A DNA stretch of 25,475 bases, from IMG/VR virus record IMGVR_UViG_3300044489_000041, positions 1 to 25,475 of that record. One strand, written 5' to 3'. The stretch is from a virus. The notes under the pieces were generated by a model, which saw nothing but the letters and a program-made list of their open reading frames with translations, made no database searches and was not told the DNA's origin. Position numbers and translations under genes: made by a program. How positions within the stretch are numbered: position 1 is the stretch's first letter; the number at the start of each line of letters is the position of its first letter. Below are positions 1 through 21,249 of the stretch, piece after piece.

Positions 1-531
1 GCACTGGCTCGGATAATCCAGACCAGGCCAGAGATGGCCCCGGATGTTTTCTGGGCCGCTGGACAGAGCCAGCCGGACGATATACGATAGCCGCGCGTTT
101 CGAACTGACATCGTGTCGTCTGGATTACACCTTCGGCAGTAGCCCCGTGCAAACACCGGGCATGCCGTTCGGGGTCGCCCTTCACCTGGATCGGGTGGGA
201 GCAGGGGTGGCCCCGAATGTTTTTCAGGCGGGCGTCATCCCTACAACGCCCGAACGGCCGGCAACCCCGCTCTCGCAACGGCTGCGGGCGCAGATAGAAA
301 CGCACTGGAGGTTCACCGCGTTCCCTCCTGCCGACCGAGGCGAAACACTACGCGGTGCGGGGCAGGTCGGTGGCCGCGGCTGATAATCGGGCCGGTCGGA
401 AGATCAAGGGAAGGCGAGTGTTTCCGCTTGCAGGGGGGTGGGGGCTTCCGTCCCGCGGGCGGCTGCTTTCAATTGAACCGCCCATGCCTGGCGCGCGCCG
501 CCTGCTGGGAATTGCAAAAGTGCCAGGGCTA
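1..531. other. Unassigned left region, no convincing gene
   Basis: No recognisable gene was found here. One plus-strand frame (3-383) is open from the window edge to a TGA. Its product is rich in Pro, Arg and Gly and matches no family I know, so it may be the end of an unknown gene or chance in G+C-rich DNA. Portal and terminase genes normally sit just upstream of a prohead protease, and neither is here. A 6-bp inverted repeat (457-462 with 478-483) and an 11-bp direct repeat (354-364 with 567-577) are also present. Confidence 0.5.
33..231 (+). repeat. Imperfect 26-nt direct repeat, two copies
   Basis: Positions 33-58 and 206-231 match at 20 of 26 bases. The shared core is TGGCCCCG, then ATGTTTT, then GGC. 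In different reading frames both copies would encode a similar peptide pattern (APDVF and APNVF). That could be a decayed coding duplication or chance. The function is unknown. Confidence 0.35.
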
Positions 532-560
532 TTGCACGCCGCGGCCAAAGGTGTAAGAAT
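532..560 (+). promoter_or_regulatory. Candidate late promoter
   Basis: A -35-like TTGCAC (532-537) is followed by a 17-base spacer and a -10-like AAGAAT (555-560). A TGn extended -10 element sits directly upstream (552-554). The nine bases AGAATCTAG (556-564) recur exactly at the minus-strand early promoter near 23558, which supports both calls. Predicted transcription starts near 567, just before a hairpin and an intrinsic terminator. This is a sigma70-type reading and the host's consensus is unknown. Confidence 0.45.
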
Positions 561-566
561 CTAGTC

Positions 567-610
567 GGTGCGGGGCAAGCCCCGCGACTTCGGGTTCAGG
601 TTGCCGACGA
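567..610 (+). ncRNA. Candidate structured leader RNA with 7-bp hairpin
   Basis: The RNA expected from the promoter near 560 begins almost at once with a tight hairpin: GCGGGGC (570-576), a two-base AA loop, and GCCCCGC (579-585). The intrinsic terminator follows 25 bases later. Together these would give a short RNA of about 75 nt. A promoter, a 5' hairpin and an early terminator ahead of late genes recall lambda pR'-tR' and the put RNA of phage HK022. Any antitermination role is inferred from layout only. Confidence 0.35.
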
Positions 611-640
611 GAGCGCCCAAATCGGGCGCTCGTTTGTTTT
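611..640 (+). terminator. Intrinsic terminator before the late operon
   Basis: GAGCGCCC (611-618) pairs perfectly with GGGCGCTC (624-631) across a five-base loop. The T-rich tract GTTTGTTTT (632-640) follows. It lies 12 bases before the protease start codon, so late transcription from upstream must read through it or be antiterminated. Confidence 0.8.
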
Positions 641-651
641 CCAGGGCAATC

Positions 652-1911
652 ATGGACCCAATCAACTTCGCAGAGCTCGAACGGCGAGTCCTCGACGAGG
701 AAGCCCGCGAGTTATCAGCGTTCCTTGCGGGTACGGGTGAGGCACCGGTCATCTACCGCTCCCATGAAGGCGCGGTCAAGGCGGTACCAGAAAACGAAGG
801 TCCCATCGAGTTCGTCTGCTCCGAGGAGTCCGACGACCGTGCGGGCGATCTCGTGCACGCCGATGGATGGGACCTCGCGGCGTTCAAGCGCAACCCCGTC
901 CTGCCCTGGTCGCACGACTACCGCGTGGCGCCGATTGGCCGGTGGCAGAAGGTTCACGTCGAGGGCAAGCAGCTACTCGGCCTGGCGACTTTCGACCGCA
1001 ACGACCCCTTCGCGGCGCAGATCGAGGCCAAGTACCGCGCGAAGTTCCTGAACGCCGTCTCGGTCGGCTTCCGGCCCATCGAGTTCGCAGAGCGCGAGGA
1101 GCGCAAGGACGCCAACCCGTTCAGGCGGGGCTACGAGTTCAAACGGCAGGAACTGCTCGAAATCTCCGCCGTCAGCGTGCCGATGCACCCGCGCGCGCTG
1201 CGCAAGGGGCTCGCGCTGGCGGACTCCGCTCCAGTGTGGGTGTTCATGCCCGGCGACGCGCCCGGACAGTTCAAGGCCGTGCAGCCAGCCGTGCAGCCCA
1301 CAGAACGCGGCGCGATCGGCTGGGCGCGAGCTCACCCGGATGGCACGCCCAGAGCGGCGCAGGACGCGCCGTGGGACGGTCCGGCAGAGGTCGCCGCGGC
1401 CTCGGTTGATGATCTGCGGGTCATGTCCGCGTGGGTGGACTCCGCGGACGACGAAAACAAGGCAGCGTACAAGTTGCCCCACCACAGGGCGGCCGGCGAG
1501 CATGCAGTGGTGTTCCGCGGGGTCGCGGGAGCGATTGCGGCCCTGAACGGCGCCCGTGGCGGAGTGGCGATCCCGGACGGCGATCGGCGGGGCGCGTACG
1601 CGCACCTGGCCCGTCACATGCGTGACGACTTCGAGACCGAACCACCGGAACTGCGATCGGCGGACGAGTGGGACGCGTGGCTCAAGGGCGTCGAAGCGGG
1701 GCTCGCGGTCCCCTGCGGTCGCATGCACGAAATGCCGACGACCACGGGTTCGACCGGTGCTATCACTCACATCACGGTCACATCACTAGGCGGGGACACG
1801 ATACCGCCCGCGGCTGAGCCTGTTCAGCCGAAGCGACCGCCAGAAGGCGGGCAGGGTGGCGAGGCGGGCATGTCCGCCGTTGTCGCGGCGCTCCGGCGCG
1901 TCCGCGAGTAG
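652..1911 (+). CDS. HK97-type prohead protease with extra C-terminal domain
   Basis: This serine protease of the U35/herpesvirus-assemblin type cleaves capsid scaffold during prohead maturation. Residues 50-185 carry the family pattern: DGWDLAAFKRNP (71-82), WSHD with the expected catalytic His88, SVGF (137-140) and ELLEISAVSVP (167-177), the last two holding candidate catalytic serines. At 419 aa it is about twice the usual length. Residues 218-330 form a separate domain with YKLPHH and ARGGVAIPD motifs that I recall from other phage protease or scaffold proteins; its function is not known to me. I chose ATG 652 over an in-frame GTG at 568, because the longer form would translate the leader hairpin and terminator. 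The ribosome site (AGGG) is weak. The capsid gene follows directly. Confidence 0.9.
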   Translation: MDPINFAELERRVLDEEARELSAFLAGTGEAPVIYRSHEGAVKAVPENEGPIEFVCSEESDDRAGDLVHADGWDLAAFKRNPVLPWSHDYRVAPIGRWQKVHVEGKQLLGLATFDRNDPFAAQIEAKYRAKFLNAVSVGFRPIEFAEREERKDANPFRRGYEFKRQELLEISAVSVPMHPRALRKGLALADSAPVWVFMPGDAPGQFKAVQPAVQPTERGAIGWARAHPDGTPRAAQDAPWDGPAEVAAASVDDLRVMSAWVDSADDENKAAYKLPHHRAAGEHAVVFRGVAGAIAALNGARGGVAIPDGDRRGAYAHLARHMRDDFETEPPELRSADEWDAWLKGVEAGLAVPCGRMHEMPTTTGSTGAITHITVTSLGGDTIPPAAEPVQPKRPPEGGQGGEAGMSAVVAALRRVRE

Positions 1912-1920
1912 GAGTTCACG

Positions 1921-3420
1921 ATGCCGACAGAGATCGACCAGGTAGTCGCCGAAGTCGCACAGATCAAGGACTTCGTCGCGCGCAAGGTGGAGGAGGGCAC
2001 CAAGCCGCTGCGCGAGGAGACATCGCGCATGGCGAAGGCGCTCGAAGACGCCCAGGCCGTCATCAACGAGCTGCGGCGCCAGCAGGTTGCGCGAGTCACG
2101 GAAAGCGGTCGCATCAAGGTAAGGGAAGGCAAGCTCGCGGGCTTTTCGGCCTTCGATCTCGCCATCGCGGAAGCAGCCCTCAAGCTGACGCTGAAGCGGC
2201 GCGGAGACGAGCGCTCGTGGCAGCAGACGAAACTCGGCACGCTCATCGTGGACGGCCGCAAGGCCATCCGCGGGGCAATCGGCTACGAGAGCGTCGACGA
2301 GTGGTCTGACATGGCGATCAGGGCAGCCAAGGATGCGACGCCTGGCGTCTCGACGCGGTCGATGCACCGGTACCACCAGAACGTGATGGCGTTCCAGGGC
2401 GAGATGCGCGAGGTCGTCGGCAAGGCGCTCGATTCGACCACGGCTGCCGCGGGTGACGAACTGGTCCCGACCTTCGAGTCCTCCGAGGTCTGGATGGATG
2501 TCAACCTGGCGACCAACGTGCTGCCCCTGCTGACGCAGGTGCCGATGCCGACGAACCCCTACGACCTGCCGCACGACTTCGGCGACACGAACTGGTACCC
2601 GATCACGGAGAACGTGCAGGTCACGACGACCGATCCGACGACAGCCAAGAACACGCTCACCGCCTACGGGCTGAAGACCGGCGTCCCCTTCTCAGACGAA
2701 CTGGCCGAGGACGCCATCATCAGCTTGGTGCCCACCCTGCGGGCTGGCCTCGTGCGCAACGCAGCCGAGGTCATCGATGACGTGCTGCTCAATGCCGACA
2801 CGACCGCGACGAACGGCATCAACTCGGACGGCGCGACGATCTCGGCATCGACCGCGGGCAAGGCCCAATGGCTGCTCGGCTTCGACGGCCTGATCCACCT
2901 GCCGCTCGTGGACAACACGGGGCAGAGGGTGGATTTGAACGCTGCCGTCGGCGCCAACACGGCCTACAACCGGGCCCTGCGGCTGCTCGGGAAGTACGCT
3001 GCACCGGCCCAGCGCGGGGATGTCGTCTTTATCGGCGACGTGAACACGATCATCGCCACCCTGGGCGAAGCAAACGTGCTCACGGTCGACAAGTTCGGCT
3101 CGCGGGCGACCATCGTGGCAGGCGAGCTCGCTAGCCTTTTCAGCATCCCGCTGATCGCCTCTGAGCAGATGAGGCTCGCTGATACCGATGGCAAGGTCAC
3201 CGATACGGGAAACGTGACGAGCACCGGTCGCATCCTCGCCTTCAACACGACTCAGTGGCGGGTCGGCTTCCGGCGCGGCATCACGGTCGAACCGGACCGC
3301 GACCCCGGCAAGGGCCAGACGGTGCTCTACGTGAGCATGCGACCCGCCCTGGTCGCACGTGGCACCCGGTCGTCGGCCACGCACACGAGCCTGATCTACG
3401 ACATCACCACCGTAACGTAG
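1921..3420 (+). CDS. Major capsid protein, HK97 family
   Basis: This is the shell-forming HK97-fold capsid subunit, 499 aa. Residues 1-65 are charged and heptad-like, matching the delta (scaffold) domain that the upstream protease removes. Residues 200-499 hold the fold, with ENVQVTTTDPT, a GVPFSDELAED segment around the spine helix, a DVVFIGDVNTI region in the A domain, and RVGFRRGITVEPDRD near the C-terminus. An AGGAG ribosome site overlaps the stop codon of the protease gene, so the two are translated in tandem. Position, length and domain order agree with the family. It may cleave near residues 110-170, but I cannot place the site. Confidence 0.93.
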   Translation: MPTEIDQVVAEVAQIKDFVARKVEEGTKPLREETSRMAKALEDAQAVINELRRQQVARVTESGRIKVREGKLAGFSAFDLAIAEAALKLTLKRRGDERSWQQTKLGTLIVDGRKAIRGAIGYESVDEWSDMAIRAAKDATPGVSTRSMHRYHQNVMAFQGEMREVVGKALDSTTAAAGDELVPTFESSEVWMDVNLATNVLPLLTQVPMPTNPYDLPHDFGDTNWYPITENVQVTTTDPTTAKNTLTAYGLKTGVPFSDELAEDAIISLVPTLRAGLVRNAAEVIDDVLLNADTTATNGINSDGATISASTAGKAQWLLGFDGLIHLPLVDNTGQRVDLNAAVGANTAYNRALRLLGKYAAPAQRGDVVFIGDVNTIIATLGEANVLTVDKFGSRATIVAGELASLFSIPLIASEQMRLADTDGKVTDTGNVTSTGRILAFNTTQWRVGFRRGITVEPDRDPGKGQTVLYVSMRPALVARGTRSSATHTSLIYDITTVT

Positions 3421-20017: not shown

Positions 20018-20159
20018 TGGCGAAGAACCTCCACGCCCACAGCAGAATCCATACAGCCCCCACGATCATTGCGGCAGCGGCCCATAGCCCCGCAACACAG
20101 ATGGCGAGTGCGATCAGTAGAGGCCCTGGCTCAGGAAAGGCCGGGCGCATCGGTGTCAC
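20010..20159 (-). CDS. 49-aa membrane peptide
   Basis: The peptide is almost entirely hydrophobic from residue 13 to 45 (LLIALAICVAGLWAAAAMIV, then GAVWILLWAWRFF), enough for one long or two short membrane helices, after a Pro-rich start. GTG 20159 overlaps the upstream HNH stop as GTGA, and the stop overlaps the next gene. Tiny membrane peptides in early phage operons sometimes act in superinfection exclusion or on host envelope functions. That is only a suggestion. Confidence 0.55.
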   Translation of the reverse strand: MTPMRPAFPEPGPLLIALAICVAGLWAAAAMIVGAVWILLWAWRFFANA

Positions 20160-20770
20160 GTCGTCTCTCCTGCCAGCTTGTCGGTGGCGGCGGCGTTCCG
20201 TCTGACGGCGTGGCTGTACGGGTTTCGCTTTCCTGCCGTCAATGACTGACACTCTTGCCCTAGCTGGGCGCTACAAGCGGGGCATATCACCGAACGGGCT
20301 GCGACAAGTGCCTGGCCTCGATTTCGATGCTGCCGCTGCTCGTCCGCCTTGCACCGTTTGCACTTCCGCTTCCGTGTACGAGTAGCAGCCGGATTCCTTG
20401 GATCGTGTCGGTGGCCGTTCACGCAGGTAGTCACGTTGCCGCTGATCCCGCGCATCGTGTTCGTCCTGTTATCAACGACTTCCATGTGGGCGGGATTGAC
20501 ACATGCACGATTGCGGCAAAGATGGTCGATCTGCCGATCAGTCGGGATCGGGCCGTATGTCGCTACGTAGGCGAAACGATGGGCCATGAACTGCCCTTGC
20601 CCCAGAAAGAACCGCCCGTAGCCCGTGTGCATGATTGTTCCGAGCCATCGCCAACAGGTAGTCGTTTTATCAACATTCAGCCAGAAGCGCGCCACCGCCT
20701 TCGGGGTAACGGGAATCGGTTTCGCTTCCCACAGCCGCGCACGCTTCTCGGCTACGTCGGCCTGCGTCAT
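20156..20770 (-). CDS. HNH endonuclease with two extra zinc-binding segments
   Basis: The 204-aa product carries the phage HNH pattern: CWRWLGT (39-45), GYGRF (50-54), MAHRFAY (62-68), GPIP (73-76), IDHLCRNRACVNPAHM (81-96) and NTMRG. A basic zinc-type stretch follows (C116, C137, C140). The last part (Cys163, Cys166, Cys174, His187: CPAC-x7-C, then SHAVR) is a small zinc-binding module I know as a free-standing or fused element in phage proteins. It overlaps the next HNH gene upstream by ATGA. Such nucleases are usually homing or nicking enzymes, and a DNA-processing role is also possible. Confidence 0.8.
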   Translation of the reverse strand: MTQADVAEKRARLWEAKPIPVTPKAVARFWLNVDKTTTCWRWLGTIMHTGYGRFFLGQGQFMAHRFAYVATYGPIPTDRQIDHLCRNRACVNPAHMEVVDNRTNTMRGISGNVTTCVNGHRHDPRNPAATRTRKRKCKRCKADEQRQHRNRGQALVAARSVICPACSAQLGQECQSLTAGKRNPYSHAVRRNAAATDKLAGETT

Positions 20771-21249
20771 GGGCGGGCCTCCGCTAGTTTCCAGCCAGCC
20801 TGGAGGCCGATCCGGGCCTTGTCAGTCCTGTACCAGCAAGGTCGGCACCGCTTCGCCGCGCGGCGGGCGAGAGGTCTACCGCAGTCGAGGCACTTCGGCT
20901 CAGGGCCCGCTCTTTCCCTCCTCGCGAGCACGGCTGCTGCTGTTGCATGGGGCTGGATGGCCCTGAGGCGGGCGACATCAATCCCTCCTCGCTGCACGGC
21001 GTCCCGGCCGTTGTCCTTCTGAGTCCCTGCGTAGAGATGGTCAGGGTTGACGCACCGCTTCACATCGCAGTGGTGAAGCACGTAGAGGCCGGGAGGGATC
21101 GGCCCGCGAGCGATCTCGTAGCTGAACCGATGGGCAGTGCTGCCGCAGAACTGACCATAGCCGTCCGGGTAGTTCAAGGAGCCCTGCCAGAGCCAACATC
21201 CCGCCGTTTTCTCGACGTGCCGCCAGAAGCGTTCTAGCCTGGTGATCAC
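20767..21249 (-). CDS. HNH endonuclease with C-terminal zinc ribbon
   Basis: The 160-aa product is a paralogue of the next protein downstream: CWLWQGS (18-24), GYGQF (30-34), TAHRFSYE (38-45), GPIP (49-52), LHHCDVKRCVNPDHLYAGT (58-76). Its C-terminal 45 residues form a zinc ribbon (Cys120, 123, 135, 138: CLDCGRPLARRAAKRCRPC). GTG 21249 overlaps the stop of the third HNH gene as GTGA. Two related HNH genes side by side suggest duplication within the operon. Homing or nicking activity is inferred from the family. Confidence 0.8.
   Translation of the reverse strand: MITRLERFWRHVEKTAGCWLWQGSLNYPDGYGQFCGSTAHRFSYEIARGPIPPGLYVLHHCDVKRCVNPDHLYAGTQKDNGRDAVQRGGIDVARLRAIQPHATAAAVLARRERAGPEPKCLDCGRPLARRAAKRCRPCWYRTDKARIGLQAGWKLAEARP

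Follow-up and report, generated by a model that had tools for sequence, protein, structure and literature searches.

A promoter-terminator leader ahead of the capsid operon of a phage contig and its relatives in Chloroflexota genomes: a candidate for conditional termination

The question raised by this locus is whether positions 532-651, directly ahead of a phage prohead protease gene, form a leader in which transcription of the capsid operon is stopped by default and continued only under certain conditions. The window, as the whole stretch of DNA analysed is called here, is an entire IMG/VR record (25,475 nt, linear, GC 65%). The operon that follows the leader is ordered protease, capsid, head-tail adaptor, neck, tail terminator, major tail and tape measure, and the opposite strand encodes a DNA methyltransferase, two HNH endonucleases, a DnaC-like loader, an O-like protein, RecT and RecE. 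No portal gene was found in the window record, which is a fragment, and in three related contigs terminase and portal form a separate unit 5-18 kb upstream. The leader therefore heads the protease-capsid-tail unit and not all late genes, and its initial annotation as the leader of the late operon needs to be narrowed to that extent. The window begins 650 nt upstream of the protease start, and any upstream gene would lie beyond the record. Codon periodicity is absent across bases 1-650, and a candidate gene at 1-383, which also belongs to no family, was rejected. Elsewhere in the window, two HNH endonuclease genes, both assigned to family phrog_826, lie side by side at 20156-21249 on the minus strand, and residues 242-335 in the C-terminal part of the protease gene (652-1911) match Thermus and Moorella phage proteins, separately from the protease domain. 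The features on which the analysis is based are as follows.

60-88, plus strand: further promoter-like site, TGGACA-17-TACGAT (score 9.6, above that of the site at 532)
171-222, plus strand: strong hairpin (-28.7 kcal/mol) followed by GAATGTTTTT, a possible terminator of a first promoter-terminator unit
532-560, plus strand: sigma70-type promoter read from the sequence, TTGCAC-17-AAGAAT with TGn ahead of the -10 (score 6.5, weak)
570-585, plus strand: 7-bp inverted repeat GCGGGGC-AA-GCCCCGC at the expected RNA start
592-605, plus strand: GGGTTCAGGTTGCC, partner of 645-659 (the start-codon region) in predicted folds of the read-through RNA
611-640, plus strand: intrinsic terminator with an 8-bp stem, a 5-nt loop and a T-run at 633-640 (-16.1 kcal/mol)
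643-654, plus strand: AGGG (possible Shine-Dalgarno sequence, from the sequence) and protease ATG
652-1911, plus strand: prohead protease (Peptidase_S78), first gene of the operon
1921-3420, plus strand: major capsid protein, HK97-type

The promoter with an extended -10 that had been described at this locus is present, with the -35 TTGCAC at 532-537, a 17-nt spacer and the -10 AAGAAT at 555-560 preceded by TGT, and it occupies the same position as the strong promoters of relatives; its RNA start is expected near 567. The GC-rich hairpin described after it is likewise present, folding as RNA into 6 bp with a CAAG loop, and could be either an RNA hairpin or a DNA operator, a LexA-type palindrome being found at the equivalent place in six relatives. 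The terminator, with stem arms at 611-618 and 624-631, G632 and the T-run TTTGTTTT at 633-640, also has counterparts at the equivalent place in relatives. It lies just before the protease as annotated, the ATG at 652 being 11 nt past the T-run and consistent with the starts of relatives. Its T-run is interrupted by a G. A simple terminator scan of 3 kb found one terminator against 1.8 expected in shuffles. The terminator alone is therefore not special, and the promoter score of 6.5 is about the best that shuffled DNA yields. Among shuffled versions of 500-651, 7.9% contained a perfect 7-bp inverted repeat, 5.6% a promoter scoring at least 6.5, 2.9% a terminator no more than 35 nt from the ATG and 0.1% the three elements jointly. 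Each element of the window leader is thus unremarkable singly and has no individual significance; that of the leader derives mainly from position and conservation. The fold of the 74-nt RNA was moderately better than that of shuffles (z -2.0) and that of the 135-nt read-through RNA (566-700) far better (z -4.8, 0/200), and no competing antiterminator fold was seen among the predicted structures of the window. The sole near copy of the window, L002, shows 100% identity across 6444 nt and consequently provides no independent evidence. Further upstream, TGGCCCCGRATGTTTT occurs twice in the window, at 35-50 and 208-223 (chance expectation 0.03), and the second copy ends the strong hairpin at 171-222, which follows the promoter-like site at 60-88 at a distance of 82 nt; a tandem promoter-terminator unit may therefore precede the leader.

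Conservation was assessed with two successive searches, by the capsid and by a capsid alignment, which gave 22 and 62 viral loci. They also gave 42 loci in genomes, all of them Chloroflexota metagenome-assembled genomes (MAGs), mostly named Dehalococcoidia or SAR202. A DNA search of phage records with window positions 400-2400 gave no match, and neither did capsid tblastn against phage records. Most loci with sufficient upstream DNA have an intrinsic terminator before the protease and a sigma70-like promoter ahead of it, so that the order promoter, terminator, protease is kept in relatives despite unrelated leader sequence. For counting, capsids were clustered at 80% identity into 34 lineages, and a strict module was defined by a terminator of -14 kcal/mol or better, a promoter scoring at least 8.5, a spacing of 15-160 nt and a distance of no more than 400 nt from the protease match. 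The elements, with their order and position, are conserved in many lineages, the strict module being found in 15/34 against 1/170 dinucleotide shuffles and 0/179 regions upstream of other ORFs; the window itself fails this test because its promoter is weak. Across 43 leaders the best promoter 5' of the terminator scored 11.2 on average (shuffled 5.7), with 40/43 at 8.5 or above, whereas the best one 3' of the terminator averaged 4.0 (shuffled 4.6), with 0/40 reaching that score. There is thus no promoter between terminator and gene, and operon transcripts must cross the terminator. A protease-alignment search identified further, independent phages that carry the module (L215, L216 and L219) and others that lack it, namely those in which a large upstream ORF, in the place of the portal, abuts or overlaps the protease (L220, L222, L223, L229, L235-L237, L253 and L255), a pattern indicating that the module is found where a transcription unit begins with the protease. 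In some distant relatives by capsid, the terminator is missing and a promoter lies almost immediately ahead of the ATG; the terminator is therefore not essential to the family.

A distinct form of the leader was characterised in the SAR202 genomes, where it recurs at scattered phage genes. A portal gene was found in 19/20 genomes with a capsid cluster, mostly at another place: it lies 0.1 to >1 Mb from the capsid on the same contig in G015-G018, G020, G022 and G024, and near the capsid cluster in G011 and G014. Upstream of the portal in G013, G017 and G023 the same leader type is present, consisting of a TTGACA promoter and a GGGAC-type hairpin that starts 6-10 nt past the -10 and carries a T-run. 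The promoter plus GGGACnnACC pattern gave 38 matches in 20 genomes (0 with the reversed pattern), and terL, terS, portal and the major tail protein gene are among the genes directly 3' of such leaders. Leaders of these phage genes (terL, terS, portal and tail) were used to build a covariance model of the hairpin, which matched 36/39 genomes sampled from the family of G013 (E 0.01). In 19 genomes examined closely, all 15 matches of at least 36 bits were at phage genes, and those of the weaker matches that were looked at were mostly ordinary terminators lacking a good promoter. In the hairpin alignment 96% of cells are paired, changes on both sides affect 22 cells, compared with 5.8 for shuffles (0/500 as high), covariation is 0.358 against 0.147 shuffled, and G-U wobbles number 33 against 11 A-C mismatches; the T-run was a scan criterion and hence was not counted as independent evidence. 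The SAR202 hairpin covaries, and these patterns indicate that it is constrained as RNA. For the window, no known Rfam family was found at the gathering threshold and nothing credible at a relaxed one. The window is not a member of the GGGACnnACC family, as its hairpins lack the motif and only the architecture is common, and the window and its phage relatives have no common leader sequence.

Several further observations were made in these genomes. G011 contains eighteen promoter-hairpin leader copies (L137, L146, L150, L153 and L155-L168) that resemble a dispersed repeat; at least two precede terS-like genes, and many are found ahead of ordinary host genes, ruvB in one case, at a distance of 400-700 nt. 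In G017, terL is present in six nearly identical copies of about 470 codons (L135, L144, L151, L154, L169 and L170), each behind the same promoter-GGGGACTGACC leader. Throughout G011-G030, packaging, capsid and tail genes occupy separate chromosomal loci (for example, capsid L037, L043 and L053 versus portal L123, L124 and L126), usually with one portal gene per genome. In G026 (C64:10534-11545) the portal gene is split by in-frame stops, and that element may be decaying.

We interpret positions 532-651 as a conditional-termination leader of the capsid operon, a reading considered marginally probable. RNA polymerase would start near 567 and stop by default near 640, releasing an RNA of about 75 nt and leaving the protease, capsid and tail genes off; in the active state, a trans-acting factor (phage- or host-encoded) or a modified polymerase would allow transcription past 640, and in the read-through RNA of the window a hidden start codon could provide a second layer. 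Promoter use, efficient termination and regulated read-through are what we infer from the sequences. The conditional-termination reading is supported by the strict module counts, the promoter positions, the divergent neighbours described below, the independent phages, the leaders of other genes and the covariation, as well as by a known gene transfer agent (GTA) cluster with a promoter, a terminator and the antiterminator GafZ (PMC11150451). Counted against it are the weak promoter of the window, its G-broken T-run and its failure in the strict test, and the terminator-less distant relatives; moreover, no known antiterminator was found, nor one gene family beside all leaders. The antitermination-Q profile PF06530 matched 0/7 records, including the window, G001, G002 and longer related records, consistent with the earlier remark that no antiterminator is visible in the window. 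No single gene family adjoins all leaders: in the SAR202 group the neighbour is hesB/erpA, whereas some phages encode small zinc-binding proteins of various kinds there. The gene just 5' of the leader is of the CGNR zinc-finger type in L003, and small genes for Mu Com-like zinc ribbons (PF10122) lie directly 5' of it in L216 and L219; such genes are only a lead. The late-gene switch proposed in the initial annotation thus stands as a conserved promoter-hairpin-terminator leader with read-through as the best reading, and could be Q-like, put-like or of another type. Recurrence in related phages and Chloroflexota clusters suggests that the capsid genes are kept off until something allows polymerase past the stop.

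Alternatively, the short RNA could itself be the product of a small-RNA gene, for which the 6S RNA of phage lambda is a parallel, with the operon read by leakage or from further upstream. The SAR202 hairpins are constrained in sequence (GGGACnnACC) besides pairing, beyond the need of a plain terminator, and the G011 copies before ordinary host genes also favour a small-RNA gene. However, nearly all strong cases have the leader close before phage genes, transcription from further upstream would likewise have to cross the terminator, and no leader sequence is common to the window and its phage relatives; this explanation is considered unlikely.

Plain attenuation or insulation, in which a constitutively leaky terminator protects the operon from upstream transcription or determines its expression level and no dedicated antiterminator takes part, was also judged unlikely. 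It would require no extra factor, in keeping with the PF06530 result, and in L003 a second terminator stands immediately before the promoter. Against level setting, the strongest pairs of relatives, with promoter scores up to 14.8 and hairpins to -39 kcal/mol, would be wasteful. Against shielding, the upstream neighbour is divergent at 14 loci, where the capsid cluster adjoins a hesB/erpA-like host gene, and likewise in L009 and L020, leaving no same-strand upstream transcription to shield from. At these same 14 loci, L009 and L020, a terminator serving the upstream gene is ruled out.

Control could instead be mainly translational, the Shine-Dalgarno sequence and ATG being held in the long stem formed by 592-605 with 645-659 until a Com-type RNA-binding protein opens it. 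The fold of 566-700 and the Com-like genes beside the leaders of L216 and L219 would fit, but the long stem is not clearly common to relatives, the window has no known Com-like gene and none lies upstream in the SAR202 loci, and translational control as the main mechanism appears very improbable.

The hairpin at 570-585 was further considered in the light of LexA-type operators. Several host recA and lexA promoters bear boxes of the type AGAACATnnGT(T/G)C, and the capsid promoters of G025 and G026 have a box nearly identical to that of their own recA. Nine leaders score at least 10/12 for the LexA box compared with 7/2000 random segments, a count that leaves out L114, whose promoter is not credible. 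In G017 (C1, ~747300-747600; L148, L174), a tail-gene leader is divergent from recA and the two have a common LexA-type box, GAACATCAGTTC. In the window no LexA box was found, the best match of 6/12 being at background level compared with scores of 10-12 in nine relatives, and its leader does not belong with late promoters under LexA/SOS control. That the palindrome is a repressor's DNA operator, and the hairpins of little weight as RNA, is suggested by the six relatives with LexA-type palindromes at the same place that match host boxes before recA and lexA, but is the least credible explanation, since the window palindrome is not a LexA box, the terminators of relatives stand beside the operators and not in their stead, and the SAR202 terminator hairpin covaries as RNA.

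Returning to conditional termination, a broader and more tentative reading, which we regard as possible but doubtful, is that the SAR202 set comprises dispersed packaging, capsid and tail genes, possibly of a GTA, under one leader type of which the phage of the window carries a diverged version. The common leader would combine, in part of the set, a LexA-type operator with a start-proximal covarying hairpin-terminator. The split, host-anchored chromosomal clusters are possibly a gene transfer agent, although separate portal and capsid loci and anchoring at hesB/erpA are also compatible with multi-prophage explanations. No literature on GTA or prophage control in SAR202 or Dehalococcoidia was found in a search of partial coverage. 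To our knowledge, a few systems, mostly proteobacterial, have been described in which phage structural genes are controlled by read-through; here, the same architecture is found in Chloroflexota phages and chromosomal clusters, with a hairpin family outside Rfam. The leader, its promoter and the LexA box offer a handle on the control of phage or GTA-like particles in a little-studied phylum, and the leader can serve as a sequence probe for the other genes of the system, including the missing read-through factor.

Among known systems, put of phage HK022 makes RNA polymerase resistant to terminators in cis and without a phage protein, and resembles the leader in anatomy, each placing stem-loops in the 5'-terminal part of the nascent transcript. 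The com/mom system of phage Mu is a translational switch, to which the start codon in a predicted hairpin and the Com-like zinc ribbons directly 5' of the leader in L216 and L219 bear some likeness; however, the target gene is different, a Com-like gene is not known from the window and the stem is not clearly conserved. In lambda pR'-tR' with Q, and in the AlpA system of Pseudomonas aeruginosa, a promoter, a short leader and an intrinsic terminator precede the late genes, a short RNA is the default product and the late genes can be read solely by passing the terminator (PMC6606751, PMC9371919). Window positions 532-651 and the relatives similarly have a promoter and then an intrinsic terminator before the first gene, and on the best reading, judged by anatomy, the window leader would work like lambda pR'-tR'. 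It differs in that no Q or AlpA homologue was found here (PF06530, 7 records), and from lambda in that it precedes the protease and not all late genes, belongs to another phylum and is unrelated in sequence. In the GTA cluster of Caulobacter crescentus, control is exerted by a promoter and a terminator that GafZ lets RNA polymerase bypass; the terminator, terGTA, lies after the first gene and consists of three 150-bp repeats, and further accessory promoters are dispersed, which is another point of likeness (PMC11150451). While the window is a contig of phage origin bearing genes for replication and recombination, both are phage-derived structural clusters under a promoter and a terminator, and the Caulobacter GTA cluster is the nearest worked-out parallel.
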